NCBI GenBank assembly: GCA_946800325.1
Contig: OX326960.1
Location: forward strand, 21,939,150 to 22,003,149
DNA: 64,000 bases
Reading direction: 5' to 3'
From: Luzula sylvatica
Lineage: Eukaryota; Streptophyta; Magnoliopsida; Poales; Juncaceae
In this document: piece after piece, positions 3,882 through 49,300 of the stretch
Position numbering within the stretch: the stretch's first letter is position 1
How the letters are laid out: the number at the start of each line of letters is the position of its first letter
Translations under genes and position numbers: made by a program
The notes under the pieces: generated by a model
What the model was told of the DNA's origin: nothing
What the model saw: the letters and a program-made list of their open reading frames with translations, nothing else
The model's database searches: none

Positions 3882-4290
3882 CAAGTTGTGCGTCATGACG
3901 AACTGTATTAACTAGTTCCGTCACGACGGACCATTTGGTCAGTCGTGACGGACATAACACGAATTAGCCCCTGGATTGGACAACAAAATTGTTTTGTATA
4001 GTCCGTCATGACGCACCTTCTGGCGTTATGACGGACAAGTGAAGTCCGTCGTGATGCACTGTTTTGTGTGTCATGACAGAAGTCAAAGTAAGTCCAAATC
4101 AGGAGAAATATTGGACATGGTCAGTCATGACGGACCAACTGTCAGTCATGACGGACAGTGTAAAATTTTTTTCTGAAAATTTTAATATGGGCATGGTCAG
4201 TCATGACGCACCATTCTGTGCATCATGACGGACTGTATACATGCGTCGTGACGGACCATGTGTCAGTCACGACGGACAGTGTAATTTTTC
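3866..4290 (+). repeat. Array of CGTCATGACG-type palindromes in a relic leader
   Basis: About a dozen units of the type (G)T(G/C)(C/A)GTCA(T/C)GACG(G/C)AC, spaced irregularly. Most are imperfect palindromes centred on CATG. Variants with CACG, CGTG or GATG at the centre look like C-to-T decay of methylated cytosines. It is the same kind of array as in the leaders at 16886-17493 and 24460-25067, in opposite orientation. Confidence 0.85.
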
Positions 4291-4461
4291 TGGAAAATTT
4301 TTATATTGGTTCTAATAATTAATAATTATGTTCATATAAGTCATTCGTCATGATTAAACCTATTTAATGATATAATTAGATTATGTCATAAAATCCCTAA
4401 GTAATATTTAAGTCATGAAATGCCTTCCATGTCCACAACCTCCGAGGTTGGTCATTACACT

Positions 4462-4494
4462 TTGCACGGTTTCAGGCCAAAGTCGGGCGTGCAA
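4462..4494 (+). other. Leader hairpin 1, conserved loop
   Basis: Stem TTGCACG / CGTGCAA around the loop GTTTCAGGCCAAAGTCGGG. The same hairpin occurs with stem TGCACG / CGTGCA in the leaders of the minus copies (16679-16709 and 24253-24283). Confidence 0.75.
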
Positions 4495-4526
4495 TGTTGT
4501 ATGTATCAACGTGAGAGGCAAGCGTT

Positions 4527-4580
4527 AATTGAGGACAAATGCGGGTTCAGGCCAAAGTCGGGCGCATTTGTAGTTCAATT
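4527..4580 (+). other. Leader hairpin 2, conserved loop with different stem
   Basis: Inner stem CAAATGCG / CGCATTTG and outer stem AATTGA / TCAATT around the loop GGTTCAGGCCAAAGTCGGG. The loop is nearly the same as in hairpin 1 but the stem sequence is unrelated. Equivalents on the minus strand are 16591-16645 and 24164-24219. A looser relative with core GGCCAAAGTC and stem CCCA / TGGG lies at 4760-4797. Confidence 0.75.
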
Positions 4581-4959
4581 GAGCGATATGTGAGCACGGT
4601 TGTGACTTAACCGTCCAAGCCAATCCGATTGGGGTTCGGGGCATAGTTAGGATGCACAAACGGAATTCTGATCATATATGATATGGTTCGATACCGAAAT
4701 TCTATAAAGGGTCAAGAGTCGCATTGGATGTGATTGGATTTATCCTACCTAAATAGTGAGATCCCATTTGTCGGCCAAAGTCACTTGTGGGAGGATCATG
4801 AAATATGGGTCTTGAAGTGTTATTGGATTTAGAATCCCGAATCAATATTAGGGTTATTGATTTGATAAAAGTAACATATTTCATATCATATAAGCATATA
4901 GAATAAGTACGCACGGTTAGTTGTCAATTTCGTAATTCATGTAGAATAATAATTTTAAG

Positions 4960-7900
4960 CAACACCAATATCATATCGATATGATCGATATTAGAGAAAG
5001 AAAAGTTTGTGAAACGGAACTACCTTGATTAACATCATATCCTAAGAATGGTTCTTAGGCAAGAGTGCAAGAGTTACGTGTTGGACACGAAATGTGTGGA
5101 ACCGATTCACATTCACGAGGCTTTAGAGAAAGCCGGAATTTGACAAACTTGAGAAGGAGTCAAATAATATTGTATGTCAGATGTTGACATGCATAGACGT
5201 GGATCTTCAAAGGAGTTTGAAGAATTATAATAAATAAGAGTCTAAGGGCGATTAAGACAAATGTTGTCTCAATCAAGGATATTTGGGCAAGTTGTTGTCC
5301 CAATATCAAAAGAAAGGTTAAATCCGAGGAGGGTTAATCTAAATGTTGATAGTAATAGCTTCTTTTGACATTATCATCTCGACTACGTGTATGAGATACA
5401 CATTACTAGAATCCAATGGATGGAATACTAGTTTCATTCGAATAAGATTCGCATGACAATTACAAGACTTGTTTAGTAATCAAGATGACAAAAGTGTCAT
5501 TCCAAAAGTTGGAAAAACGGTCAAAGACTTACCAAAAACCAAACATTTTGAATGTAGGTAAATAAGTAAGTTCTGAGGCGAGATGAGGCTACAAATATTT
5601 CATTATATTTACCAACGATTATTGTAGATATAAAGATATCTATTTAATGCGTTTGAAACATAATTTTGAATAGTTCAAAAACGTTTCGAAATGAAATACG
5701 AAGTCAACTAAGCAAGAAAATCAAAGTTTTTCGATAAGATCGAAGAGACGAGCATTTTTAAGCTATGAGTATGATAATCATCTAGAAAATTTATGAAAAA
5801 GTTTCATAGTTGTTTTCATTCGGAACATCAATGTAGATTAATGTGTCCGAGAGGAGGAATCAAACTTTGTTGGACATTTGTTTGATAGATGATAAATCAA
5901 AATCTAATATTTCAAATAAGATTTGAAAATTTACCCTTAAGACCAAGGTTAATCACATACCTTCTAAGTCGGTGCAAAAGACCCCATATATGATATGGAT
6001 AGGAAATAAATTAAATTGAGGATTAACGTGGTTTCAGGCCAAAGTCGGGCACGTATAGTTCAATGTTAATGAAAACTTCCGATGTTATCTTTTGTAAGAT
6101 TTGGAGATTTGAATTCGAAAACTGGTTTTGGATAAACTAAATCTCAAATCTTGATATGTTCATCCATTGAGTATTCTTAAAGAAACTAAAGGATACCATT
6201 TATTAAATCCCAATGAGAATTAGATTTTCATAGTTCGAAGAGATACCTTCTTAGAGGAGGACTTAATGTGCATAAGTTTGAAACTTAATGTCACTTATAT
6301 CTATGAGGGCTAGTGGGAGATGAATCGATCTCGAAAGGTTCGAGACTCGAATGGAATATTGAACCGATGAATATGATTGGAATTTCATCAAAAGTTGATG
6401 AATCCAAGTCAAGATCACAAAGCGATTTTATAGATCAATTTAGACACGTCACGAATCAATAAATTATGAATTTATCAAAGAATGTGACAAACGAATCGAA
6501 CTCATACATGCCGAGTCGATGGACTAAAATGATGCTATAAAGGATAAAATTTCATATGGCATGGTGCCATGGAATCCATGCATGTCATCAAGTTTAAAAC
6601 TTGATTTAAACATTCCTTAGGGTATGACCCATAGAATGTGAGTGAGTTTTCAAAGTGAAAACTAAAGTGGATTGGAATATGTATACTTACAAAGCAAGAA
6701 TGTTTATGAGATTTGCGAATTCATGATATGATCATGAAGAAACGGTTTCACAAATGATCACGCTTTATTCATTAGGATTATATTTGTCATTTCACATAGT
6801 ATGACTATGATTTTTGACAAATGGATGACAAGACCGTATTCTTTAATAGGAAATATTAAAGGATGTGTATGTGACACAACCTAATGGTTTTATCGATCAA
6901 AAGAATCCAAGAAAAGTATACAAATTTCAACGATCCATATGATGGATTGAAGAATAATTCATGGAATTGGAATTTTATTTTGATAAAATTATAATTAGTT
7001 ATAATATTATCAAGAACAAAAGAAAAGCTTTGTGTAGATATGAAGGTTAGTGGGAGCCACATACATTTCTTATATTAAAATATATGAACGATATATTATT
7101 CGTAGGAAACGATTGTCGAGACAACTTATGAGATAATCGTAAAAATCTATGAGATAGATTTAACATTCCTCGATCTGAATTGAAGTATGTACATCGACAA
7201 AATATTGATAATGGTTTTCAGTACATAAATCCAGTATCGGATTTTTCCCAAATGTCGAATGGCGAAATTTTTCTGAGGATCGATGTGCGACATCGAGTTA
7301 AAGAAAAGTAGGAAAATGGATAATCTATGTTTCGACAATAGAATATTCCAAATACGCCATGATATGTACTAATCTTTAAATATTGTTCATGTTAAGTATC
7401 GTAATTATCAATCGAATAATTTAATGTGGTTGTATAATGATTATACTTCACATATGCATAATAGTTATGCAACATTTAAAATCTGGTTTCGTATTGAAAT
7501 TAATAAATAATATCCTTTTAGAAAGGATTAAGACTATATTTCTCATATAAAATGGTGGGGAGGATGAATTGGTGATAAAAGTTATATCGATGGCATTTCT
7601 CCAAATATGCGACACATTTATGAAATGTGTACATATTTTGCTTAAATAAAATTGAAGTTGTATGAAAGAGTTTCACAACAACTAAAGATGAAAATTTTAT
7701 GATGGAATTAGATTTCAATACGGCTTACGAAGCCGAAATGGAAAAGTTATGGATCAAGGTGTTGATCATACTTGGTATTGTCCCAAGAAATAGGATTATT
7801 TGGTAATCTATTTCGATGGACGAAATAGCCCAAACCAAAAGAAATTGAAATAACATAACCACTCCAAACTTATATTCAATAGGTATTGGATACCTAACAA

Positions 7901-9148: not shown

Positions 9149-10179
9149 TGAAGGAAATACAGTTATAGATCAACTAGTAGCTTGCACACATGAGGATAGA
9201 CGAACGTACGCATTCGTCGATACGATTGGATGCATAATAAGATTATGCAAATCTGACAGAAATAACATGGTCAGTCATGACGGACTGTTTGGTCAGTCAT
9301 GACGGACCAATAGGTTAATCTGTCAGATTACACAGAAATAACATGGTCAGTCATGACGGACAGATTGGTCAGTCATGACGGACCAAAGGGAATTTTGTGT
9401 ACCAATCCGTGAGTATGGTCAGTCATGACGCACAATATGGTGCGTCATGATGGACTGTATGGTCAGTCATGACGGACTGTATGGTCAGTCATGACGGACC
9501 AATAGTAAATGCTGTTTCTAGGAAACGTGACTGGTGCATCATGACGCACCATTCTGTGCGTCATGACGGACTGTGATCCAAATTCCAGATTAGCAGTTTT
9601 CTTTGTACTCATTAATTCCTCATTAATTATGGTGTTAATATAAGATCAATTGTTGATCTTCTCTCTCTCTGGAAATTCCAGATCTGAGAAGAGAAGTCTT
9701 GTGAGACAAGAAAAGAGAGAAAACTCCATTAGAGAGATTGAAGGTTTTAAGCAAGTTTACGGCGATTTTAGGGGAATCACGCGTAACCGAAAGACGAGGC
9801 TTAAGGTGGATACGGGTAGAGGGATTTCATCTGAAATCCTCTATTGTGATCAAGCTAGAGCAAGATGGATGACGAACTGGATGTGATCCGGTTGTATACG
9901 ACAAATTGGAGCTTCGAACAAGGTGTCGAATCGCGCGGGCGTGGGACGTGCGTGTTGCCGGAGTTGAAGCAAAGAGCAAAGCAACTACGCGAGGATCAAC
10001 CCTTCACCGTGATTAATTTCACGTGGTATGCTTCTCTATGAATTAAGAGTTAATTTCATAGGTTTAGTTGCATTTACATGATTCGTACTTTCGGGTCGTT
10101 GACGTGGTCCTCGGGATCGGGTCGGACCGGGCCTCTCAATCCGCTGCGCGGGGCTCGGTAGTGACGACGATACCCTACA
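9149..10179 (+). repeat. LTR, subfamily B, complete (1031 bp)
   Basis: Starts TGAAGGAAATACAG after the polypurine tract and ends in CCCTACA, so TG...CA ends are intact. U3 carries ten CGTCATGACG-type units (about 9270-9575), mostly as GGTCAGTCATGACGGACC. A TATA-like TTAATATAAG lies near 9635, followed by a CT-rich stretch that probably holds the transcription start. I count about five substitutions against the B LTR at 30757-31787. Here it is the 3' LTR of the decayed element. One base (G, 10180) separates it from an inverted LTR instead of a target-site duplication. Confidence 0.95.
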
Positions 10180-10180
10180 G

Positions 10181-11121
10181 TGTTGGGTATCGGCGTCACT
10201 ACCGAGCCCCGCGCAGCGGATTGTGAGGCCCGGTCCGACCCGATCCCGAGGACCACATCAACGACCCGAAAGTACGAATCATGAAATGCATCTAACCTAT
10301 GAAATTAACGCTTAATTCATAGAGAATCATACCGCGTGAAATTGATCACGGAGACAGGTTGACTCTATTAGCTGCTGCTTGCTTCGATCCCGGCGACACA
10401 CACGTCCCACGCCCGCGTGATTCGACACCTTGTTCGAAGCTCCTATTTGTCGTATACAACCGGAATTTATCCGATTCGTCTTCGACCTTGCTCGACTTAG
10501 CTCTCGTTAGATCACAGTCCAGAATCTCAGTTGAGATTCCTCTACTCGTATCCACCTCGAGCTCGCGTCTTTCGGTTGCGGCGAATTCCCCTAAAATTCC
10601 CGCAAGCTTGCTTAAATCTAATCTCTATTCTCCACTAACTTGTCTCACAAGTTCTCTCTATTCTCTACTAGAATTAGGTCTGGCAGCCAGAGAGAGAGAG
10701 GAAGAAGAATCCACAGTTCTTATATTAATCTGAGAGTTAATGGTGTATTAATGAGTATCAGAAACTGCTAATCCAGAATTCGGATCACTGTGCGTCATGA
10801 CGCACGATATGGTGCGTCATGACGCACAAGTCACATTTACTTGGATATAGCCGTTACACAGTGTACCGTCATGACGCACGATAACGTCCGTCATGACGCA
10901 CCACTCATGTGTACCGTCATGACGCAAGATAACTTGCGTCATGACGCACTACTCACAGATTGGCTTTCTCAGAATTACTCTATTGTGCGTCATGACGCAC
11001 CATGTAATTTCTGCCAGATTTGCATAATCTTATTATGCATCCAATCGTTCCGACGAACACGTATGTTTGTCTACACTCATTTGTACATTCAACTAGTTGA
11101 TCTGTAACTGTATTTCCTTCA
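10181..11121 (-). repeat. LTR, subfamily A, complete (941 bp), 3' LTR of copy 2
   Basis: On the minus strand it runs TGAAGG...CCCAACA. U3 holds seven CGTCATGACG palindromes (10790-11005), several perfect GTGCGTCATGACGCAC. A TATA-like motif lies at 10719-10728, followed on the minus strand by a CT-rich stretch. Compared with the LTR at 17741-18693, I see one substitution and a 12-bp indel (GCTCTTTGCTTC absent here), which points to a very recent insertion if the two are a pair. The polypurine tract is at 11122-11132. Confidence 0.95.
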
Positions 11122-16208: not shown

Positions 16209-17727
16209 GATTGCTACAACGAAAAATACTTTAAAATGAGATTGATACTGATATGTGCGAACTTATGCTATATGCTTATATGATGATATGAAATATGTTA
16301 CTTTTATCAAATCAATAACCCTAATATTGATTCGGGATTCTAAATCCAATAACACTTCAAGACCCATATTTCATGATCCTCCCACAAGTGACTTTGGCCG
16401 ACAAATGGGATCGCACTATTTAGGTAGGATAAATCCAATCGCATCCAATACGACTCTTGACCTTTTATAGGATTTCGGTATCGAACCATATCATATATGA
16501 TTCAAATTCCGTTTGTGCATCCTAACTATGCCCCGAACCCCAATCGGATTGGCTTGGACGGTTAAGTCACAACCATGATCACATATCGTTCAATTGAACT
16601 ACAAATGCGCCCGACTTTGGCCTGAACCCGCATTTCTCCCCAATTAACGCTTGCCTCTCACGTTGATACATACAACAATGCACGCCCGACTTTGGCCTGA
16701 AACCGTGCAAGGTGTGATGACCAACCTCGGAGGTTGTGAACATGGAAGGCATTTCATGACTTAAGTATTATGCAGGGATTTATGTGATATAATCTAATTA
16801 TATCAATAAGCAAGTATATCATGATGAATGAACATAATTAATAATGATTAGAACCACAATTAAATAAATCAAGAAAAATTACACTGTGCGTCACGACGCA
16901 ACATAACGTCCGTCATGACGCACCGTACTAAAATGGACTTCCATTGACTTCCGTCATGACGCAACATAACGTGCGTCACGACGGACTTCACAGGTCCGTC
17001 ATGACGCCAGACAGTGCGTCACGACGGACCATACAAAACAATTTTGTTGTCTATTCCAGAAACTATTTCAGGTTCCTCCGTCATGACGGTTGGTTACTAC
17101 CGTCACGACGGACCGTGTTCTTCCGTCATGATGCCAGACGGTGCGTCATGACGGACTGTACAAAACCATTTTGTCCAGATTTCCAGAAACTTTTTGAGGT
17201 TCTTCCGTCATGATGGTTGGTTATACCGTCACGACGGACTGTTCTGGTCCGTCATGACGCCAGAGGGTGCGTCATGACGCACTGAACAAAACCATTTTGT
17301 TCAGTTTGCCAGAAACTTTTTGGACTTCTACCGTCATGACGCACCAAACGGTCCATCATGATGGTACGCATTTACACAGTGCGTCATGACGCACAACTTT
17401 TGTGCGTCACGACGAACTGAGTAACGCCTCAGATCCAACTCTTGGATTTCCCGTGTGCGTCATGACGCACCATATCGTGCGTCATGACGCACCAGACCTG
17501 AAATTCAGTTTTATTTTGTAATTTTAACAGATTTTAATCGTTTCAAAAACGATTAATCATGAACAATTCATGATTACTTCTAGATTCTTTTGATCATCTC
17601 ATGATCAAATACTAGTAAGATTTCTATGGTCCTAATTTTACAACTACATGATTATGTCCTAAAATTCTACATGAAATTCCGAATAACACTTATTCGAAAT
17701 CGATTCGACGATCGAATCGTGACGATC
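16209..17727 (-). other. Copia 5' leader of copy 2
   Basis: A 1.5-kb untranslated leader lies between the primer binding site and the gag ATG. It holds the palindrome array (16886-17493), the two conserved-loop hairpins (16679-16709 and 16591-16645), and unique sequence matching the relic leader at 4291-4930. By position it should carry dimerisation and packaging signals, which is inference. Confidence 0.85.
16886..17493 (-). repeat. Leader palindrome array with 126-bp higher-order repeat
   Basis: About 20 units based on CGTCATGACG, such as GTGCGTCATGACGCAC, GTCCGTCATGACGCCAG and CCGTCACGACGGAC. A higher-order repeat of about 126 bp starts at 17033, 17160 and 17286. Each begins with ACAAAAC(A/C)ATTTTGT and the CCAGAAACT block and then carries four or more palindromes. 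Confidence 0.9.
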
Positions 17728-19805: not shown

Positions 19806-22800
19806 CTACAAACCAACTTCCTCCTCTAGGTATCTCAAACCTATAGTTCTAGCATGACGATCATGCTTCGCAATTGGAAGAGGTTTCGTAAACGGATCTG
19901 CCACATTCTCGTCAGTATCAATCTTCAAAATCACAACATCCTGCCTATGTAAAATCTCACGAATCAAGTGAAATTTACGCAAGATGTGTTTGGAGCGATG
20001 ATGCGATCTCGGTTCCTTGGCCTGTGCTATTTCTCCAGTGTTGTCACAATACACAGCCACGGGTTCCGAGATGCTCGGTACGACACCAAGTTCAGTCACG
20101 AACTTCTTGACCCAAACCGCCTCCTTTGCGGCTTCTGAAGCCGCGATGTATTCTGCTTCCGTCGTAGAGTCAGCAACTGTCGGTTGTTTGGAACTCTTCC
20201 ATATAACCGCGCCACCATTCAAACAAAACACGTACCCACTTTGTGATCGAAAATCATCGGTACATGTTTGGAAACTGGCATCAGTGTAACCTGTTACAAC
20301 CAATCCATTATCCTTGCCACCATACACTAAAAACTGATCCTTAGTTCTTCGTAAGTACTTGAGGATAGTTTTCACGGCTTGCCAATGCGGATCACCTGGA
20401 TTCGATTGGTAACGTGATAAGACGCTCAATGCATACGATACGTCAGGTCTCGTACAGATCATGGCATACATGATAGATCCAACCGCCGAAGCGTATGGAA
20501 CCTTATCCATGTTACTTTTCTCTTCGCTCGATGTCGGACATTGAGCTTTCGAAAAGTTTATACCACTCGACATGGGAAGAAACCCTTTCTTAGAGTTTTG
20601 CATGAAAAATCTTTTCAGCACCTTGTCGATGTACGTACTCTGACTTAGGCCGAGGAGTCTCTTGGATCTATCTCTATAGATCCTCACGCCTAAAATATAG
20701 GCGGCCTCTCCTAAATCTTTCATAGCGAAACGAGTATTCAAATACTTCTTAACATCTGATAACATCGGAATGTCGTTTCCTATGATTAATATATCGTCCA
20801 CATAAAGAACAAGAAATACTACGCGGCTCCCACTAACCTTCTTATATACACAAGGTTCTTCTTCGTTCTTGATAAAATCATACTCGCTTATGACTTCATC
20901 AAAACGAATATTCCAACTCCGAGAAGCTTGTTTCAGTCCATATATAGACCTTTGAAGCTTGCATACTCTATTAGGATTCTTTGGATCGATAAAACCTTCG
21001 GGTTGTGTCATGTACACATCCTCCGATAATTTCCCGTTAAGGAAAGCGGTTTTAACATCCATTTGCCATATCTCATAGTCATAATATGCGGCTATGGCAA
21101 GAATAATCCTTATAGACTTAAGCATGGCTACCGGCGAAAACGTTTCATCATAGTCAACACCATGAATTTGCTTGAAACCTTTCGCTACCAACCGTGCTTT
21201 GTAAGTATGCACATTCCCATCCATGTCGGTTTTCTTCTTGAAAACCCACTTACACCCGACGGGTTTAACCAAGGGTGGTGGATCAATCAAGTTCCAAACT
21301 TGATTATCATACATGGATTGGATCTCGGACTTCATGGCATCATGCCATTTGTCGGAATCTTCGCTCAACATAGCATCTTTGTAGGTTGTCGGCTCATCAT
21401 CTATGAGTTCGACGTTGCCTTCATCAGTCACGATAAATCCATATCGTACTGGTTCCAGCCGGGTCCTACTAGACCTACGAGGAGCACCTTGTGCTATTGG
21501 CTCGACATCCTCAACTATTGATGGATTCGGGTCAACATCCATCGGTTCAATGTTTATTTCTGAATCTCGAACCTCTTCGAGATCAATTTTACTCCCACTA
21601 GCTCGTTGAGATATAAAATCCTCCTCCAAGAAGGTACCTCTTCGAGCTACGAAAACCTTGTTTTCCTCGGGATTGTAGAAATAATATCCTTTAGTTTCCT
21701 TAGGATATCCTACAAATAAACATTTTTCAGATTTGGGTTCGAGTTTATCCGAAAACATTTTTCGAACATAAACATCACATCCCCAAATTCTAATAAAAGA
21801 TAACACCGGAGGTTGTCCGGTCCACATCTCATATGGTGTCTTTTGAACCGATTTAGAAGGTAAGCGGTTTATCAAAAAAGCCGCTGTCTCAAGGGCATAT
21901 CCCCAAAACGATTTTGGGAGACTAGTTTGACTCATCATAGATCGAACCATATTCAATAAGGTCCGATTCCTCCTCTCGGACACGCCATTCCATTGAGGCG
22001 TTCCAGGTGGAGTCAATTGTGAAACGATTCCACAATCTTTGAGATGATCTTCAAACTCATAGCTCAAATACTCGCCTCCTCGATCTGATCGAAGTGCTTT
22101 GATTGTCTTGCCAAGTTGATTTTGAACCTCATTCTGAAATTCTTTGAACTTTTCAAAAGATTCAGATTTGTTACGCATTAAGTAGATATACCCATATCTA
22201 CTAAAATCATCCGTAAACGTTATGAAGTATCGATAACCTCCTCTTGCCTCGGTACTCATTGGACCACATACATCAGAATGTATAAGTTCCAATAGTTCCT
22301 TGGACCTTTCTCCAACTTTTGAGAATGGTGCTTTTGTCATCTTGCCAAGTAAACAAGATTCGCATTGTCCATATGAATCAAATTCAAATGAATCCAAAAG
22401 TCCATCCTTATGGAGTTTTGAGATGCGCTTCTCGTTTATATGGCCAAGTCGACAATGCCAAAAGTAAGTTTTACTATCAACTTTAGGTTTAATCCGATTC
22501 GTGTTTATATTATAGATTGATTTATCATTTGTGTAATTCATATCTAAAATGTAAAGACCATTTTCTAATAGAACATTTCCATAGAATAAATTATCCTTAC
22601 AAATAGAAAATTCATTATTCTTAATAATAAATTCATAACCATCATTAGCTAGTCTAGACACACTAATAATGTTCTTACACAAACTTGGAACAAAATAACA
22701 ATTATTTAGTTCTAAAATAAATCCACTCGGTAAAGTAATAAAAATATCTCCGACGGCCAATGCAGCAACGCTTGCTCCATTCCCTACTCGAAAATCCACT

Positions 22801-23780
22801 TCACCGCGTGTTAACTTCCTTCTATTTTGAAGAACCTGCATATTTCGACAAATATGAGTTCCACAACCGGTATCTAATACCCAATTGTCCAAAATTGAAA
22901 TGTTAACATCTATAATAGTCATACCTGCGGTTCCGGCTTCCAAAGCCTTTCCCTTGCTTTTCTTCACCTCCTCGAGGTAAATCTTGCAATTTCTCTTCCA
23001 ATGCCCAGTCTTTTTGCAATGGAAGCAGGTGACATCCTCAGATTTCTCCTTTCCTTTAGTCTTCGGTTTGGACAACGACTTGCCCGCACCGCCCTTGGAC
23101 TTTTGTTTCTTACGAATCCCACCTTGAATCATGAGGACATCCCTAGCAACTCTTGCTTTGGGTTCCCCCGATGCCTTAAGCATCTCCGACTCAAAGTTCT
23201 TGAGCATCCCATGGAGCTCGGGAATCGTCTTGTTCATCGAATGCATATGATAGTTCGTTACGAAAGTTGAAAAAATCGGTGGCAATGCACATAAGATCAA
23301 ATCTTGTTGCATTATTGGTGACACCTTTTCTCCCAATTTCTCGAGACGATCAATCAATGATTGTACCTTTAACACGTGAGTGCTAACCGAAGATCCGTTA
23401 GGCATCTTACAGTTAACCAACTCCTTTAACGTATTGAACCTTTCAATGCGTTCTTGCTCTTGGAACATTTCCTTGAGCGTGGCGTTAATTTCGTACGCAT
23501 CCGAATCCTCGAACTGCTTCTGCAAGTTCGCGTCCATACATGCCAACATGAGGCACGTCACGTCATTTGACTCCTTCTTAAGTTTGTCAAATGCCGCCTT
23601 TTCTTCGGGCGAAGCGTTCTCGTCGGGAGTAACCATCTTCGTGTCTAACACGTGACTTTTGCACTCTTGCCTAAGAACAATTCTTAGGTTACGGTGCCAG
23701 TCAAGATAGTTCTTGCCGACTAGCTTCTCCCTCTCCAATACCGATCTAATCGACATTGAGTTGGTGTTGCTTGATGTCAT
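19806..23780 (-). CDS. Copia Gag-Pol polyprotein, copy 3 (1324 aa, intact)
   Basis: Full-length and collinear with copy 2: zinc knuckle 252-265, protease DTG 303-305, integrase D503, D566, E602, reverse transcriptase YVDD 993-996, RNase H D1167 and D1246. It has Ser at 502, before the first integrase Asp, the usual copia arrangement (HSDVCGPM). A private change is Glu for Ala at 1250, four residues after the RNase H Asp (DNTGEI), which might affect RNase H. All motifs are intact. The copy shares S502 and several silent changes with copy 4 rather than with its tandem neighbour. Confidence 0.97.
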   Translation of the reverse strand: MTSSNTNSMSIRSVLEREKLVGKNYLDWHRNLRIVLRQECKSHVLDTKMVTPDENASPEEKAAFDKLKKESNDVTCLMLACMDANLQKQFEDSDAYEINATLKEMFQEQERIERFNTLKELVNCKMPNGSSVSTHVLKVQSLIDRLEKLGEKVSPIMQQDLILCALPPIFSTFVTNYHMHSMNKTIPELHGMLKNFESEMLKASGEPKARVARDVLMIQGGIRKKQKSKGGAGKSLSKPKTKGKEKSEDVTCFHCKKTGHWKRNCKIYLEEVKKSKGKALEAGTAGMTIIDVNISILDNWVLDTGCGTHICRNMQVLQNRRKLTRGEVDFRVGNGASVAALAVGDIFITLPSGFILELNNCYFVPSLCKNIISVSRLANDGYEFIIKNNEFSICKDNLFYGNVLLENGLYILDMNYTNDKSIYNINTNRIKPKVDSKTYFWHCRLGHINEKRISKLHKDGLLDSFEFDSYGQCESCLLGKMTKAPFSKVGERSKELLELIHSDVCGPMSTEARGGYRYFITFTDDFSRYGYIYLMRNKSESFEKFKEFQNEVQNQLGKTIKALRSDRGGEYLSYEFEDHLKDCGIVSQLTPPGTPQWNGVSERRNRTLLNMVRSMMSQTSLPKSFWGYALETAAFLINRLPSKSVQKTPYEMWTGQPPVLSFIRIWGCDVYVRKMFSDKLEPKSEKCLFVGYPKETKGYYFYNPEENKVFVARRGTFLEEDFISQRASGSKIDLEEVRDSEINIEPMDVDPNPSIVEDVEPIAQGAPRRSSRTRLEPVRYGFIVTDEGNVELIDDEPTTYKDAMLSEDSDKWHDAMKSEIQSMYDNQVWNLIDPPPLVKPVGCKWVFKKKTDMDGNVHTYKARLVAKGFKQIHGVDYDETFSPVAMLKSIRIILAIAAYYDYEIWQMDVKTAFLNGKLSEDVYMTQPEGFIDPKNPNRVCKLQRSIYGLKQASRSWNIRFDEVISEYDFIKNEEEPCVYKKVSGSRVVFLVLYVDDILIIGNDIPMLSDVKKYLNTRFAMKDLGEAAYILGVRIYRDRSKRLLGLSQSTYIDKVLKRFFMQNSKKGFLPMSSGINFSKAQCPTSSEEKSNMDKVPYASAVGSIMYAMICTRPDVSYALSVLSRYQSNPGDPHWQAVKTILKYLRRTKDQFLVYGGKDNGLVVTGYTDASFQTCTDDFRSQSGYVFCLNGGAVIWKSSKQPTVADSTTEAEYIAASEAAKEAVWVKKFVTELGVVPSISEPVAVYCDNTGEIAQAKEPRSHHRSKHILRKFHLIREILHRQDVVILKIDTDENVADPFTKPLPIAKHDRHARTIGLRYLEEEVGL

Positions 23781-25301
23781 GATTGCTACAACGAAAAATA
23801 TACTTTAAAATGAGATTGATACTGATATGTGCGAACTTATGCTATATGCTTATATGATGATATGAAATATGTTACTTTTATCAAATCAATAACCCTAATA
23901 TTGATTCGGGATTCTAAATCCAATAACACTTCAAGACCCATATTTCATGATCCTCCCACAAGTGACTTTGGCCGACAAATGGGATCGCACTATTTAGGTA
24001 GGATAAATCCAATCGCATCCAATACGACTCTTGACCTTTTATAGGATTTCGGTATCGAACCATATCATATATGATTCAAATTCCGTTTGTGCATCCTAAC
24101 TATGCCCCGAACCCCAATCGGATTGGCTTGGACGGTTAAGTCACAACCATGATCACATATCATTCAATTGAACTACAAATGCGCCCGACTTTGGCCTGAA
24201 CCCGCATTTGTCCCCAATTAACGCCTGCCTCTCACGTTGATACATACAACAATGCACGCCCGACTTTGGCCTGAAACCGTGCAAGGTGTGATGACCAACC
24301 TCGGAGGTTGTGAACATGGAAGGCATTTCATGACTTAAGTATTATGCAGGGATTTATGTGATATAATCTAATTATATCAATAAGCAAGTATATCATGATG
24401 AATGAACATAATTAATAATGATTAGAACCACAATTAAATAAATCAAGAAAAATTACACTGTGCGTCACGACGCAACATAACGTCCGTCATGACGCACCGT
24501 ACTAAAATGGACTTCCATTGACTTCCGTCATGACGCAACATAACGTGCGTCACGACGGACTTCACAGGTCCGTCATGACGCCAGACAGTGCGTCACGACG
24601 GACCATACAAAACAATTTTGTTGTCTATTCCAAAAACTATTTCAGGTTCCTCCGTCATGACGGTTGGTTACTACCGTCACGACGGACCGTGTTCTTCCGT
24701 CATGATGCCAGACGGTGCGTCATGACGGACTGTACAAAACCATTTTGTCCAGATTTCCAGAAACTTTTTGAGGTTCTTCCGTCATGATGGTTGGTTATAC
24801 CGTCACGACGGACTGTTCTGGTCCGTCATGACGCCAGAGGGTGCGTCATGACGCACTGAACAAAACCATTTTGTTCAGTTTGCCAGAAACTTTTTGGACT
24901 TCTACCGTCACGACGCACCAAACGGTCCGTCATGATGGTACGCATTTACACAGTGCGTCATGACGCACCACTTTTGTGCGTCACGACGGACTGAGTAACG
25001 CCTCAGATCCAACTCTTGGATTTCCCGTGTGCGTCATGACGCACCATATCGTGCGTCATGACGCACCAGACCTGAAATTCAGTTTTATTTTGTAATTTTA
25101 ACAGATTTTAATCGTTTCAAAAACGATTAATCATGAACAATTCATGATTACTTCTAGATTCTTTTGATCATCTCATGATCAAATACTAGTAAGATTTATA
25201 TGGTCCTAATTTTACAACTACATGATTATGTCCTAAAATTCTACATGAAATTCCGAATAACACTTATTCGAAATCGATTCGACGATCGAATCGTGACGAT
25301 C
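23781..25301 (-). other. Copia 5' leader of copy 3
   Basis: Same layout as 16209-17727, including the conserved-loop hairpins at 24164-24219 and 24253-24283. It differs from the copy 2 leader by few substitutions, some falling in the palindrome units. Confidence 0.85.
24460..25067 (-). repeat. Leader palindrome array of copy 3
   Basis: About 20 CGTCATGACG-type units in the same order as at 16886-17493. Unit differences are mostly C/T or G/A changes, for example CGTCACGACG here against CGTCATGACG at the unit near 17333. Confidence 0.9.
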
Positions 25302-25313
25302 ACTCTGATACCA
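25302..25313 (-). promoter_or_regulatory. Primer binding site of copy 3, one mismatch
   Basis: Reads TGGTATCAGAGT on the minus strand: the last base of the 12-base match differs from the other copies (TGGTATCAGAGC). The first 11 bases still match the initiator tRNA-Met end. Confidence 0.85.
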
Positions 25314-25902: not shown

Positions 25903-28900
25903 TCATGTTGGCATGTATGGACGCGAACTTGCAGAAGCAGTTCGAGGATTCGGATGCGTACGAAATTAACGCCACGCTCAAGGAAATGTTCCAAGAGCAA
26001 GAACGCATTGAAAGGTTCAATACGTTAAAGGAGTTGGTTAACTGTAAGATGCCTAACGGATCTTCGGTTAGCACTCACGTGTTAAAGGTACAATCATTGA
26101 TTGATCGTCTCGAGAAATTGGGAGAAAAGGTGTCACCAATAATGCAACAAGATTTGATCTTATGTGCATTGCCACCGATTTTTTCAACTTTCGTAACGAA
26201 CTATCATATGCATTCGATGAACAAGACGATTCCCGAGCTCCATGGGATGCTCAAGAACTTTGAGTCGGAGATGCTTAAGGCATCGGGGGAACCCAAAGCA
26301 AGAGTTGCTAGGGATGTCCTCATGATTCAAGGTGGGATTCGTAAGAAACAAAAGTCCAAGGGCGGTGCGGGCAAGTCGTTGTCCAAACCGAAGACTAAAG
26401 GAAAGGAGAAATCTGAGGATGTCACCTGCTTCCATTGCAAAAAGACTGGGCATTGGAAGAGAAATTGCAAGATTTACCTCGAGGAGGTGAAGAAAAGCAA
26501 GGGAAAGGCTTTGGAAGCCGGAACCGCAGGTATGACTATTATAGATGTTAACATTTCAATTTTGGACAATTGGGTATTAGATACCGGTTGTGGAACTCAT
26601 ATTTGTCGAAATATGCAGGTTCTTCAAAATAGAAGGAAGTTAACACGCGGTGAAGTGGATTTTCGAGTAGGGAATGGAGCAAGCGTTGCTGCATTGGCCG
26701 TCGGAGATATTTTTATTACTTTACCGAGTGGATTTATTTTAGAACTAAATAATTGTTATTTTGTTCCAAGTTTGTGTAAGAACATTATTAGTGTGTCTAG
26801 ACTAGCTAATGATGGTTATGAATTTATTATTAAGAATAATGAATTTTCTATTTGTAAGGATAATTTATTCTATGGAAATGTTCTATTAGAAAATGGTCTT
26901 TACATTTTAGATATGAATTACACAAATGATAAATCAATCTATAATATAAACACGAATCGGATTAAACCTAAAGTTGATAGTAAAACTTACTTTTGGCATT
27001 GTCGACTTGGCCATATAAACGAGAAGCGCATCTCAAAACTCCATAAGGATGGACTTTTGGATTCATTTGAATTTGATTCATATGGACAATGCGAATCTTG
27101 TTTACTTGGCAAGATGACAAAAGCACCATTCTCAAAAGTTGGAGAAAGGTCCAAGGAACTATTGGAACTTATACATTCTGATGTATGTGGTCCAATGAGT
27201 ACCGAGGCAAGAGGAGGTTATCGATACTTCATAACGTTTACGGATGATTTTAGTAGATATGGGTATATCTACTTAATGCGTAACAAATCTGAATCTTTTG
27301 AAAAGTTCAAAGAATTTCAGAATGAGGTTCAAAATCAACTTGGCAAGACAATCAAAGCACTTCGATCAGATCGAGGAGGCGAGTATTTGAGCTATGAGTT
27401 TGAAGATCATCTCAAAGATTGTGGAATCGTTTCACAATTGACTCCACCTGGAACGCCTCAATGGAATGGCGTGTCCGAGAGGAGGAATCGGACCTTATTG
27501 AATATGGTTCGATCTATGATGAGTCAAACTAGTCTCCCAAAATCGTTTTGGGGATATGCCCTTGAGACAGCGGCTTTTTTGATAAACCGCTTACCTTCTA
27601 AATCGGTTCAAAAGACACCATATGAGATGTGGACCGGACAACCTCCGGTGTTATCTTTTATTAGAATTTGGGGATGTGATGTTTATGTTCGAAAAATGTT
27701 TTCGGATAAACTCGAACCCAAATCTGAAAAATGTTTATTTGTAGGATATCCTAAGGAAACTAAAGGATATTATTTCTACAATCCCGAGGAAAACAAGGTT
27801 TTCGTAGCTCGAAGAGGTACCTTCTTGGAGGAGGATTTTATATCTCAACGAGCTAGTGGGAGTAAAATTGATCTCGAAGAGGTTCGAGATTCAGAAATAA
27901 ACATTGAACCGATGGATGTTGACCCGAATCCATCAATAGTTGAGGATGTCGAGCCAATAGCACAAGGTGCTCCTCGTAGGTCTAGTAGGACCCGGCTGGA
28001 ACCAGTACGATATGGATTTATCGTGACTGATGAAGGCAACGTCGAACTCATAGATGATGAGCCGACAACCTACAAAGATGCTATGTTGAGCGAAGATTCC
28101 GACAAATGGCATGATGCCATGAAGTCCGAGATCCAATCCATGTATGATAATCAAGTTTGGAACTTGATTGATCCACCACCCTTGGTTAAACCCGTCGGGT
28201 GTAAGTGGGTTTTCAAGAAGAAAACCGACATGGATGGGAATGTGCATACTTACAAAGCACGGTTGGTAGCGAAAGGTTTCAAGCAAATTCATGGTGTTGA
28301 CTATGATGAAACGTTTTCGCCGGTAGCCATGCTTAAGTCTATAAGGATTATTCTTGCCATAGCCGCATATTATGACTATGAGATATGGCAAATGGATGTT
28401 AAAACCGCTTTCCTTAACGGGAAATTATCGGAGGATGTGTACATGACACAACCCGAAGGTTTTATCGATCCAAAGAATCCTAATAGAGTATGCAAGCTTC
28501 AAAGGTCTATATATGGATTGAAACAAGCTTCTCGGAGTTGGAATATTCGTTTTGATGAAGTCATAAGCGAGTATGATTTTATCAAGAACGAAGAAGAACC
28601 TTGTGTATATAAGAAGGTTAGTGGGAGCCGCGTAGTATTTCTTGTTCTTTATGTGGACGATATATTAATCATAGGAAACGACATTCCGATGTTATCAGAT
28701 GTTAAGAAGTATTTGAATACTCGTTTCGCTATGAAAGATTTAGGAGAGGCCGCCTATATTTTAGGCGTGAGGATCTATAGAGATAGATCCAAGAGACTCC
28801 TCGGCCTAAGTCAGAGTACGTACATCGACAAGGTGCTGAAAAGATTTTTCATGCAAAACTCTAAGAAAGGGTTTCTTCCCATGTCGAGTGGTATAAACTT

Positions 28901-30756: not shown

Positions 30757-31787
30757 TGAAGGAAATACAGTTATAGATCAACTAGTAGCTTGCACACATG
30801 AGGATAGACGAACGTACGCATTCGTCGATACGATTGGATGCATAATAAGATTATGCAAATCTGACAGAAATAACATGGTCAGTCATGACGGACTGTTTGG
30901 TCAGTCATGACGGACCAATAGGTTAATCTGTCAGATTACACAGAAATAACATGGTCAGTCATGACGGACAGATTGGTCAGTCATGACGGACCAAAGGGAA
31001 TTTTGTGTACCAATCCGTGAGTATGGTCAGTCATGACGCACAATATGGTGCGTCATGACGGACTGTATGGTCAGTCATGACGGACTGTATGGTCAGTCAT
31101 GACGGACCAATAGTAAATGCTGTTTCTAGGAAACGTGACTGGTGCATCATGACGCACCATTCTGTGCGTCATGACGGACTGTGATCCAAATTCCAGATTA
31201 GCAGTTTTCTTTGTACTCATTAATTCCTCATTAATTATGGTGTTAATATAAGATCAATTGTTGATCTTCTCTCTCTCTGGCAATTCCAGATCTGAGAAGA
31301 GAAGTCTTGTGAGACAAGAAAAGAGAGAAAACTCCATTAGAGAGATTGAAGGTTTTAAGCAAGTTTACGGCGATTTTAGGGGAATCGCGCGTAACCGAAA
31401 GACGAGGCTTAAGGTGGATACGGGTAGAGGGATTTCATCTGAAATCCTCTATTGTGATCAAGCTAGAGCAAGATGGATGACGAACTGGATGTGATCCGGT
31501 TGTATACGACAAATTGGAGCTTCGAACAAGGTGTCGAATCGCGCGGGCGTGGGACGTGCGTGTTGCCGGAGTTGAAGCAAAGAGCAAAGCAACTACGCGA
31601 GGATCAACCCTTCACCGTGATCAATTTCACGTGGTATGCTTCTCTATGAATTAAGAGTTAATTTCATAGGTTTAGTTGCATTTACATGATTCGTACTTTC
31701 GGGTCGTTGACGTGGTCCTCGGGATCGGGTCGGACCGGGCCTCTCAATCCGTTGCGCGGGGCTCGGTAGTGACGACGATACCCTACA
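30757..31787 (+). repeat. LTR, subfamily B, complete (1031 bp), shared
   Basis: Begins TGAAGGAAATACAG after the polypurine tract of copy 4 and ends CCCTACA one base before a primer binding site. It is thus the 3' LTR of copy 4 and the 5' LTR of the gag-only copy 5. It has the same length as the B LTR at 9149-10179, with about five substitutions. The U3 array holds ten units (about 30877-31180). TATA-like TTAATATAAG is at 31243-31252, with a CT-rich initiation region just after. Confidence 0.95.
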
Positions 31788-31788
31788 G

Positions 31789-31800
31789 TGGTATCAGAGC
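31789..31800 (+). promoter_or_regulatory. Primer binding site for initiator tRNA-Met, copy 5
   Basis: TGGTATCAGAGC, one base after the LTR end CCCTACA. Confidence 0.9.
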
Positions 31801-31884
31801 AATCAAGTGAAATTTCACAGAGCTTATATGACGAACACGTATGGTTACACAGTGTACCGTCACGATTCAACTAGTTGATCGGTA
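31801..31884 (+). other. Very short patchwork leader of copy 5
   Basis: Only 84 bp separate the primer binding site from the gag ATG, against about 1.5 kb in copies 2 and 3. From 31830 on it is built of three abutting pieces that match the antisense strand of the A LTR: 31830-31843 (like 11052-11065), 31844-31865 (like 10851-10872) and 31866-31885 (like 11088-11107). Their order differs from that in the LTR. The palindrome GTGAAATTTCAC lies at 31807-31818. No palindrome array or conserved-loop hairpin is present. Confidence 0.75.
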
Positions 31885-32802
31885 ATGTCGATTAGATCGG
31901 TATTGGAGAGGGAGAAGCTAGTCGGCAAGAACTATCTTGACTGGCACCGTAACCTAAGAATTGTTCTTAGGCAAGAGTGCAAAAGTCACGTGTTAGACAC
32001 GAAGATGGTTACTCCCGACGAGAACGCTTCGCCCGAAGAAAAGGCGGCATTTGACAAACTTAAGGAGGAGTCAAATGACGTGACGTGCCTCATGTTGGCA
32101 TGTATGGACGCGAACTTGCAGAAGCAGTTCGAGGATTCGGATGCGTACGAAATTAACGCCACGCTCAAGGAAATGTTCCAAGAGCAAGAACGCATTGAAA
32201 GGTTCAATACGTTAAAGGAGTTGGTTAACTGTAAGATGCCTAACGGATCTTCGGTTAGCACTCACGTGTTAAAGGTACAATCATTGATTGATCGTCTCGA
32301 GAAATTGGGAGAAAAGGTGTCACCAATAATGCAACAAGATTTGATCTTATGTGCATTGCCACCGATTTTTTCAACTTTCGTAACGAACTATCATATGCAT
32401 TCGATGAACAAGACGATTCCCGAGCTCCATGGGATGCTCAAGAACTTTGAGTCGGAGATGCTTAAGGCATCGGGGGAACCCAAAGCAAGAGTTGCTAGGG
32501 ATGTCCTCATGATTCAAGGTGGGATTCGTAAGAAACAAAAGTCCAAGGGCGGTGCGGGCAAGTCGTTGTCCAAACCGAAGACTAAAGGAAAGGAGAAATC
32601 TGAGGATGTCACCTGCTTCCATTGCAAAAAGACTGGGCATTGGAAGAGAAATTGCAAGATTTACCTCGAGGAGGTGAAGAAAAGCAAGGGAAAGGCTTTG
32701 GAAGCCGGAACCGCAGGTATGACTATTATAGATGTTAACATTTCAATAACATTGCTTGAGGTGCCACATAAACCAACATGGAGCCCCAAGCTGTCATGTT
32801 GA
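31885..32802 (+). pseudogene. Copia gag-only copy 5, cut before protease
   Basis: The frame starts at the ATG for residue M9 of the full polyprotein and covers Gag and the zinc knuckle (CFHCKKTGHWKRNC). Homology ends at 32745, just before the protease region; 18 unrelated codons follow to a TGA at 32800-32802. The product would be Gag with a foreign tail and no enzymes. One readable change is Glu for Lys at DKLKEES. It has an LTR promoter, a primer binding site and a short leader upstream, but no 3' LTR. It may be a deletion product, or a Gag-only gene if transcribed. Confidence 0.85.
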
Positions 32803-47497: not shown

Positions 47498-49048
47498 TCA
47501 TCTCCATTTTTCTCTATTGGAATAACTAGGACAACAACTCTCTTGAGCAATATCTTTAATTTGAATTTTGGTATCGTATAATTGCCCAATTTTCCAATCC
47601 ATCGGGAGAATTTCATCTTCGGTCCATACCCATTTACCATCATAACCTCCCGTCACCACGAGACGAAATTTTAGCGGGCCATGTGGCGCCCTATGAGTGG
47701 TCCAAATCGGCCCCTTCTTTTGCGACATGTATCGCCATACCGACGAACCGACCTATATAAAAAAAATAATTAGATAAAAATACTTACAATATGGTTATAA
47801 ACTATATAGTATATTATAAAATTCAATTGATTATGAACTACTTGCAATATGGTTATAACTAATTAACTATAAAGTATATTAAAAAGTCAAATTGATTATA
47901 TTATTGTTTGGCAATAATATTAGGCACCACCCATAATTTACCCCGCACTTTACCCGCATTGACTGATTAGGAAACTCAATTCATTAATTACATTCCTAAT
48001 TAATATAAGCGGGGTAGATTGCGGGTTTAATTAGCGTGGTGTATAGTATATTTCATTGTTTGGAATGTATAATTGAAGCTTATGAGAATCTAATTAATGA
48101 ACTCATAAATGCGATAACTTCCATGTAGTGTTTCGAACTGAAAATGGCATGAATCATGATTCCATCTATTTGTATATTTTGGAAATTAAAATTGACACGT
48201 TGCCTAATGTAGACTTATTTGATACAAGCACGTAAGAAAAACTAAGAAAATAATTTAAACTTACTTGGGCGATTTCGACCGCCACGATATCGGTTTGTCC
48301 GCCTTGATACAGAAATTTGATCGTTAAATGATTTGGATTTTGGCTAATTTCTTCTATTCTTATCGAAAGGTTTTTCTTGTATTCACACGGTACTCTGTTT
48401 CAAATAAAAAAATAATGTTACTAACGAAGGACAATCCAAAAATAATAATTAAGTTAATAGTTCTTAATTACTATTCGAACTAACCTTCTAAATTGAACGT
48501 GTATTTTTCCGAGTTTAATCAAATCGAGGCCCCCCTCGTCATTGGCCAAAGCCACGAAAGCTTTTTTACTTAGAATAAAGCTAGTCCCGTTATTGTTATT
48601 TCTTTTCGTATCGGTAACTATCACTTTTACCCCTTCTTTCTTGCATAGCTTTTCGTCCTCACATCTCACCTAGGCATTTCATCGAACAGGTTAGCTACAC
48701 AAACTTGACAATCCAAATTGAATTTTTTTACTTTGAAAAACTTGAATTGAAGTTAATTACCTCGAAACAAGCTCCGCAACCGTCTCCTTCCCGGAAGAGA
48801 TTCGAGCTTCCGGCAGCAATATAACCTCCGTTTAGTTCCGTAGCCATGGACCCATATCCACAAGCACCCACTATTACAAATTGGAAGTATTTAGATTCTG
48901 TAAACATGAACAATTCATAGAAATTAATAAATTTACCATTTAGAAGGGCGGAAGAAGAGAAGAACGAAGCTTTTGCTTGTTGGGCACACCAATCACAAGC
49001 CGAAGCAGAGCGAGAAAGAAAGGCAAGAACTAAGAAGAGACTTATCAT
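47498..49048 (-). CDS. Expansin-like A (EXLA), 5 exons, 263 aa
   Basis: Exons on the minus strand are 48937-49048, 48761-48870, 48485-48669, 48265-48394 and 47498-47752, all with GT-AG introns and consistent phase; the stop is TGA at 47498-47500. Residues 1-17 form a signal peptide before CDWC, so the product is secreted to the cell wall. Residues about 38-136 form the double-psi beta-barrel domain (GACGYGSMATELNGG, EGDGCGACFEVRC, VTDT). Residues about 148-245 form the C-terminal beta-sandwich (KFLYQGGQTDIVAVE, GSSVWRYM, LVVTGGYDGKWVW, DIAQESC). Where alpha- and beta-expansins have His-Phe-Asp, this protein has Ser104-Phe-Ile, as known for expansin-like proteins; wall-loosening activity is unproven for that group. 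The length is normal for EXLA. Intron 1 is only 66 bp and in frame. The 512-bp intron 4 holds an imperfect local duplication (47780-47900). Confidence 0.93.
47925..48055. repeat. Small inverted repeat in EXLA intron 4, MITE-like
   Basis: CACCACCCATAATTTACCCCGC near 47932 and GCGGGGTAGATTGCGGGTTT near 48009 (before GCGTGGTGTA) are imperfect inverted copies. Possibly a degraded miniature transposon inside the intron. Confidence 0.4.
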
Positions 49049-49300
49049 GATTACAGAGATAAAGATGGTACCAATTTTTGAGGTTTTTTGTGGGTATGGA
49101 AAGAAAGAGAAGCTTAGAGGAGAGAAAGAAGTGGGTTTGCAGTATGATGTGATGATGATAAGTACTGAGCAAGCTTCGAGCCTAAAAAAGAGGACAAGAG
49201 AGGGGAGAGAGAGAGAGAGAGAAGAGAAAGAGACGTGGTGAGATCGAACTTAATTCAAACAAAACAAGGATAACTGTGTTTTTAGCATTAAAAAAATCGA
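49049..49300 (-). promoter_or_regulatory. EXLA upstream region, GA-rich
   Basis: The sequence before the EXLA start carries a purine-rich run with (GA)n near 49205-49222, which reads as CT-rich on the gene's strand, a common feature of plant core promoters and 5' UTRs. No clear TATA box was fixed. Confidence 0.4.

Follow-up and report, generated by a model that had tools for sequence, protein, structure and literature searches.

A covarying RNA hairpin block in the leader of Copia retrotransposons of Luzula sylvatica

Retroviral packaging relies on several hairpins with one loop motif, which lie between the PBS and gag and are read by nucleocapsid. As far as we are aware, these hairpins differ from the leader block described here in both loop sequence and structure.

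Three retrotransposon systems are close to this block. Ty1 is likewise an LTR element with hairpins in its 5' RNA, and the Ty1 study describes kissing hairpins with complementary apices, on which both dimerisation and packaging depend; the assays used a mini-element together with a helper (PMC5454406). According to the same study, the Ty1 domain is a pseudoknot that lies within the first 326 nt, PBS included, and the sequence of its core is nearly invariant (PMC5454406), whereas the Luzula block lies about 1 kb past the PBS and has three hairpins with one apex and stems that covary. For Ty3, PAL6, a short GC-rich palindrome at a hairpin apex near the 5' end, is the proposed start of dimerisation (PMC11381356); PAL6 is a single 6-nt palindrome, whereas here a 4-nt GGCC is found on three hairpins. 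In barley, BARE1 and BARE2 also form a plant Copia pair with a Gag-less partner: BARE2 cannot make Gag, is packaged by BARE1, and is said to keep the dimerisation and packaging signals (PMC3735527). The main text of that paper does not contain the words hairpin, stem-loop, or kissing. The defective partner in Luzula differs from BARE2 in having a decayed gag-pol and an additional hairpin. By position and logic, the Luzula block appears to resemble the Ty1, Ty3, and BARE systems, with a different structure. In the open-access literature (titles and starts of abstracts), we found no report of a covariation-supported leader structure in a plant retrotransposon, which is weak evidence of absence, and the string GGCCAAAGTCGGG was not found in the open-access literature searched.

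Hairpins and host elements in the window

The window is the whole 64,000-nt stretch of DNA analysed (GCA_946800325.1, contig OX326960.1, positions 21,939,150 to 22,003,149 of the forward strand). An earlier note had described two leader hairpins, H1 and H2, with a common core, TTCAGGCCAAAGTCGGG, on unrelated stems. Both are present where it placed them (cores at 4471-4487 and 4546-4562), and the stems are indeed unrelated: TTGCACG/CGTGCAA in H1 and CAAATGCG/CGCATTTG in H2. The looser relative, H3, is also present at 4760-4797, with its core at 4773. A further hairpin, H4, beyond those described earlier, sits in an insert within the decayed pol of the relic, and its stem has 9 bp in other copies. 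The features are as follows.

4440..4517, plus strand: H1, long hairpin; outer stem; inner stem TTGCACG/CGTGCAA within 4462-4494; apical core 4471-4487
4522..4584, plus strand: H2, hairpin; outer stem TTAATTGA/TCAATTGA-like; inner stem ACAAATGCG/CGCATTTGT; core 4546-4562
4589..4754, plus strand: middle part of the structured leader block, from H2 to H3; 51 predicted pairs
4760..4797, plus strand: H3, third hairpin; same apical GGCCAAAGTC (4773-4782); no TTCA/GGG internal loop
4890..9307, plus strand: decayed gag-pol and 3' part of the relic, which bears H1-H4; contains stops; 28-58% amino-acid identity over matched pieces, with the RT piece of the adjoining copy (99.6%) set aside
6015..6064, plus strand: H4, fourth hairpin; core 6033-6049; stem ACGTG/CACGT; outer ATTGA/TCAAT
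16564..16733, minus strand: H1 and H2 of copy 2; H3 core 16390-16399
19806..23804, minus strand: gag-pol open frame of copy 3, stop to stop; gag ATG at 23780
24138..24307, minus strand: H1 and H2 of copy 3; H3 core 23964-23973
25303..25313, minus strand: PBS of copy 3, TGGTATCAGAG; start of the leader of about 1.5 kb

The relic (copy 1) is a plus-strand element that begins at about 4242 and is a decayed relative of copies 2 and 3. The latter are minus-strand Copia elements with open gag-pol frames and a leader of about 1.5 kb. Three successive pieces of copy 3 match Pfam domains (PF14223 and PF00098; then PF13976 and PF00665; then PF07727), and the element belongs to the Copia superfamily by its Copia-type gag with a CCHC knuckle and its integrase before reverse transcriptase. 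The relatives of its gag piece bear the Copia gag domain and, where named, are mostly from plants. The PBS, which we take to be of the initiator-Met-tRNA type, is at 25313 in copy 3 and 17739 in copy 2, directly after the LTR end TACCCAACAG; 11 of the 16 regions fetched contain such a site with no more than one mismatch.

Several other arrangements were observed in the window. Between 10171 and 32747, two minus-strand copies are arranged in tandem with common LTRs (period 7560/7574), LTR ends meet head to head at 10171-10189, and an inverted gag-pol copy begins at 25903, adjoining a cut LTR; this layout reflects either a rearrangement (e.g., autointegration) or an assembly artefact. At 31779-31900, an LTR end and a PBS are followed after only about 100 nt by the start of gag, without the long leader or hairpins. 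Repeats of GTCATGACGGAC-like units, with copies about 127 nt apart and 81% alike, occur in the leaders between the PBS and the hairpin block (16950-17339 and 3942-4160). A 173-aa open frame at 48728-49249 (minus strand) presumably resembles the start of an expansin-like protein, and no Pfam family was detected in it at E 0.001.

In the window, GGCCAAAGTC occurs exactly 10 times and, with at most one mismatch, 20 times, against 1.7 expected and a maximum of 5 in 100 shuffles. In copies 2 and 3, the GGCC cores are at 16688, 16613, and 16390 and at 24262, 24187, and 23964, respectively (minus strand). The relatives reported in these two copies are therefore present, but their recurrence does not stand as independent evidence, because copies 2 and 3 are 99.5% identical and their leader is 96% identical to that of copy 1 over 499 nt. 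An alignment of the copies in the window contained single changes only, some of which break a pair, and no compensatory change. Thus, the window alone shows no covariation between copies, and the only evidence there is the difference between the stems.

Folded singly, the hairpins have moderate stability only (z of -1.5 to -2.6), and the 361-nt stretch has no extra stability compared with shuffles (z -0.76); the support for the structure is covariation, not folding energy. A covariance model built from six hairpins in the window found seven places at 58-65 bits, six of which were its own members, and the loose H3 cores reached only 9.9 bits. Rfam gave 0 matches in the window at the gathering score, and a relaxed scan of 3900-6400 gave 6 matches, all under that score. 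The GGCCAGAGTC and GGCCTAAGTC places were also considered as a shared hairpin, and those folded showed none in common.

Covariation and strand of the leader block

The genome from which the window comes, of 445 Mb in 37 contigs, contains 814 exact copies of the 17-nt core and 0 of its reversed control. Among the matches listed, many cores lie in pairs at a spacing of 75 nt, and in several cases another core follows about 1.35-1.5 kb downstream. A second pattern (25 nt, stem GTG/CAC, apex CAWA) was found at 1,096 places, a few of which also hold the first core; in 40 stretches of this set, those with two hairpins keep a spacing near 75 nt. These two counts define at least two large subfamilies: the apex is CAAA in A and CAUA in B. 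Only 2 places in the genome matched a pattern that requires a purine at stem column 11, so no large stem family combines such a purine with that core. Relatives were searched for in one plant genome, and all loci except the window itself came from the first 48 Mb of contig C1. In the viral_contigs and genome_contigs sets, every match to the core was of phage or bacterial origin: viral_contigs gave two phage contigs that have one sequence in common, and genome_contigs gave 34 bacterial stretches. A gag-pol search of viral_contigs found nothing.

Alignment A2 comprised 32 rows, 31 of them distinct, from 46 units, with 14 near-identical units excluded. Its loci were fetched by the core alone, and its stems were therefore unselected. 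Two loci fetched in this way, L013 and L068, have ACTCACGTG/CACGTGAGT as the inner stem of H2 instead of ACAAATGCG/CGCATTTGT, with the same outer flanks, and their H1 is also altered. The RNAalifold structure of A2 (32 sequences) has 48 pairs, 13 of which show double changes, and 97.8% of cells are paired in the fixed structure (31 distinct rows). These double changes affected 13 pairs and 36 cells, compared with 4.6 and 6.2 in shuffles (0/500), and at most 6 pairs and 7 cells when the partner was slid.

Because shuffles ignore relatedness, we used a tree null, in which substitutions were placed on a FastTree tree and those of each branch were randomly relocated; the tested structures were predicted from the same sequences, and the null begins from the same ancestral pairs. 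In A2, there were 6.2 pair-keeping double changes against 0.94 expected (0/500 as high) and 29.4 pair-breaking single changes against 51.8 expected (0/500 as low). With subfamily B included (alignment A3; 51 of 60 rows, gappy rows excluded), the corresponding values were 7.4 against 0.95 (0/1000) and 35.8 against 60.6 (0/1000); the pattern used to fetch the 29 B rows of A3 requires pairing at three stem positions of one hairpin or more, which biases A3 towards pairing at those positions. Compared with shuffles, A3 was unexceptional in the number of pairs with double changes (11 vs. 8.8; 31/500) and of further pair types (75/500), and the cells with double changes numbered 240 against 101 (0/500). 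In 43 blocks chosen for having H3, double changes exceeded the null in H1 (4.2 vs. 0.5), H2 (4.8 vs. 0.4; 1/300), and the middle part (6.2 vs. 0.8); H3 itself had 0 double changes and 8.0 pair-breaking changes against 16.7 (2/300 as low). H4 was not more conserved than its flanks in 14 elements (p 0.49).

An all-pairs G-test (R-scape-like, with APC and the tree null) of the 46 units, a weak test in a clonal sample, gave no significant pair, and the lowest E, about 10.7, belonged to a non-predicted pair. Covariation among genome-wide copies, the check proposed in the earlier note, was thus significant for pair-keeping double changes on the tree and null in the all-pairs test. The latter result would suit an origin by chance and clonal amplification, in which a single two-hairpin founder spread with no selection, as would the near-identity of most sampled copies (median identity 0.93). 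This origin is extremely improbable, given that stems were replaced with pairing kept and that the tree null never reached the observed values (0/500 and 0/1000). Furthermore, at least five contiguous positions pair in 51 of 59 plant contexts, which are mutually related rather than an independent sample, but in only 2 of 36 chance 17-mers from bacteria and phages.

The direction of the single changes bears on the strand. RNA tolerates G-U pairs, and the mirror change gives A-C. As means over ancestral reconstructions of 51 rows, changes from Watson-Crick pairs to G-U numbered 37.8 and those to A-C 8.5 (tested as 38 vs. 8, p 9e-6); in the unbiased A2, the values were 29.6 and 7.5 (tested as 30 vs. 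7, p 2e-4). This asymmetry stems from a shortage of A-C, for which 24.3 changes were expected under the null (0/1000 as low), while G-U was slightly above the null, at 37.8 against 29.7 (28/1000 as high), and at 29.6 against 24.9 in A2 (58/500 as high). In H1 alone, G-U was not raised (9.8 vs. 13.0), and the A-C shortage was weak in the middle part (18.1 vs. 24.2).

The inverted repeats might instead be a feature of the DNA, copied by template switching or recognised as DNA, with no function in RNA. Palindrome correction during DNA copying can keep inverted repeats symmetric, which speaks for such a feature. However, a DNA structure would treat G-U and A-C alike, and in 15 of the 16 regions fetched a piece of gag, integrase, or RT runs in the direction of the hairpins (same-direction matches only), so we regard this explanation as very improbable. 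The particular case that would have overturned the earlier reading, a duplicated DNA inverted repeat without RNA conservation, likewise fails to explain the asymmetry, which indicates selection on the sense RNA. We conclude that the block folds in the sense RNA and that selection keeps the pairing while the stem sequence drifts. The orthologous genome-wide copies, the tree null, and the A-C shortage all uphold the earlier view that changing stems beneath a fixed loop are a sign of selection on RNA structure. It is nearly certain that the leader block is an RNA structure, and H1, H2, the middle part, and H3 constitute one structured block of about 360 nt.

Leader setting, apex, and possible function

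The block lies between the PBS and gag of Copia elements with an open frame. In two of these, L110 and L111, the PBS is 1039 and 1046 nt from H1, the gag ATG is about 490 nt from H1, and the frame is open to the end of the fetched stretch. In contrast, L108, L109, L118, L120, and the window relic have many stops and no own frame > 150 aa. Four of these five decayed elements have H1 and H2, and in L120 the fetched stretch contains the H4 core only. Compared with L110, L118 is 91% identical in H1-H2, 95% in the middle part, and 98% in H3, but 67% and 83% in two upstream leader stretches. The corresponding values for the window relic are 97%, 94%, and 100%, with 62% and 82% upstream (partly owing to its rearranged 5' part) and 62-80% in its coding remnant. 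In L108 and L109, nearly the whole leader matches that of L110 (98-100% for most of its length), and the block could have been retained there through recent exchange. Identity is also 85-98% from 114 to 490 nt after H1 and 85-88% from H3 to gag in L108, L109, L118, and the window relic; conservation is therefore not of the hairpins alone. In addition, dead copies keep sequence by descent, which counts against selective retention. L108 and L109 are mostly 94-100% alike and lie 12 Mb apart, and H4 is carried by 14 elements. These observations suggest that the decayed, H4-bearing lineage has multiplied. In such a lineage there is nothing to translate, and a cis element that it keeps is therefore more likely to serve packaging, dimerisation, or reverse transcription than translation; retention without a usable frame would thus favour a replication-type function in cis.

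The apical core is nearly fixed while the stems drift. When L110 (subfamily A) is compared with L161 (subfamily B), identity is 63-64% in the H1 arms, which nevertheless pair, and 95% in the H1 core; the values for H2 are 81-82% and 89%, and the leader upstream of the block is 51% identical (shuffled control, 42%). A predicted apical-stem pair is G-U in 58 of 60 rows in H1 and 59 of 60 in H2, as expected of a recognised element rather than a plain helix. Of the 43 blocks with H3, 38 have the apex CAAA in every hairpin, 2 have CAUA in every hairpin, and 3 are mixed. Self-pairing of the GGCC apex is conceivable, although some copies have a broken form (GGGC, CGGC, GACC, TGCC). In H2 of L082, AGCT takes the place of GGCC, so that both halves of the four-base palindrome are altered.

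Features expected of a packaging signal were found: the block lies between the PBS and gag, has a conserved RNA structure, and is kept in Gag-less elements. We consider that the block is probably a cis-acting packaging and dimerisation domain read by Gag and common to the non-autonomous partner, a role suggested by its position, its structure, and its retention in the decayed lineage. The block would mark the genomic RNA for packaging and dimerisation, and the repeated apex (GGCC-A-A/U-A-GUC) would serve as a multi-copy recognition site for the nucleocapsid part of Gag, with GGCC perhaps acting as a self-complementary contact between two genomic RNAs. The non-autonomous lineage, which has no usable genes, would be mobilised in trans by keeping the block and a further hairpin.

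Alternatively, the block may control translation and have no packaging role, letting ribosomes pass about 40 upstream AUGs on the way to gag by an IRES or a shunt. The gag ATG is preceded by 40 upstream ATGs in L110 and 39 in L161, and the block is close upstream of gag; however, it is kept in a stop-riddled lineage without a gag-pol to translate. In both subfamilies, moreover, the gag ATG directly follows a T-rich TTGTAG, which suggests splicing as another route round the upstream ATGs. Control of translation is thus rather unlikely. The TTGTAG precedes the gag ATG at 3136 in L110 (minus strand) and at 1858 in L161, and the leader may be spliced out of the gag mRNA, judging from this sequence. 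The acceptor-like TTGTAG, donor-like sites upstream of the PBS, and the same apex on three hairpins would also fit a nuclear RNA element bound by a host factor at the repeated apex, with a role in export, stability, or control of leader-intron splicing. The donor-like sites, which were scored against an approximate consensus, differ in position between A and B, though; we judge such an element improbable, to about the same degree as translation control.

Under the packaging and dimerisation reading, one tentative and rather doubtful extension is that the apex is a packaging code. Gag would read one motif on three hairpins, CAAA would have changed to CAUA in concert at the subfamily split, and A and B RNAs would be sorted to different particles. 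Parasites would then have to carry the current version of their host, and one lineage would have added a hairpin to compete better.

The motif is compact and repeated, and its many natural variants within a single genome amount to a collection of compensatory mutants that is already at hand. With a defective lineage that has retained this motif, the question of what Gag recognises in plants becomes directly testable.
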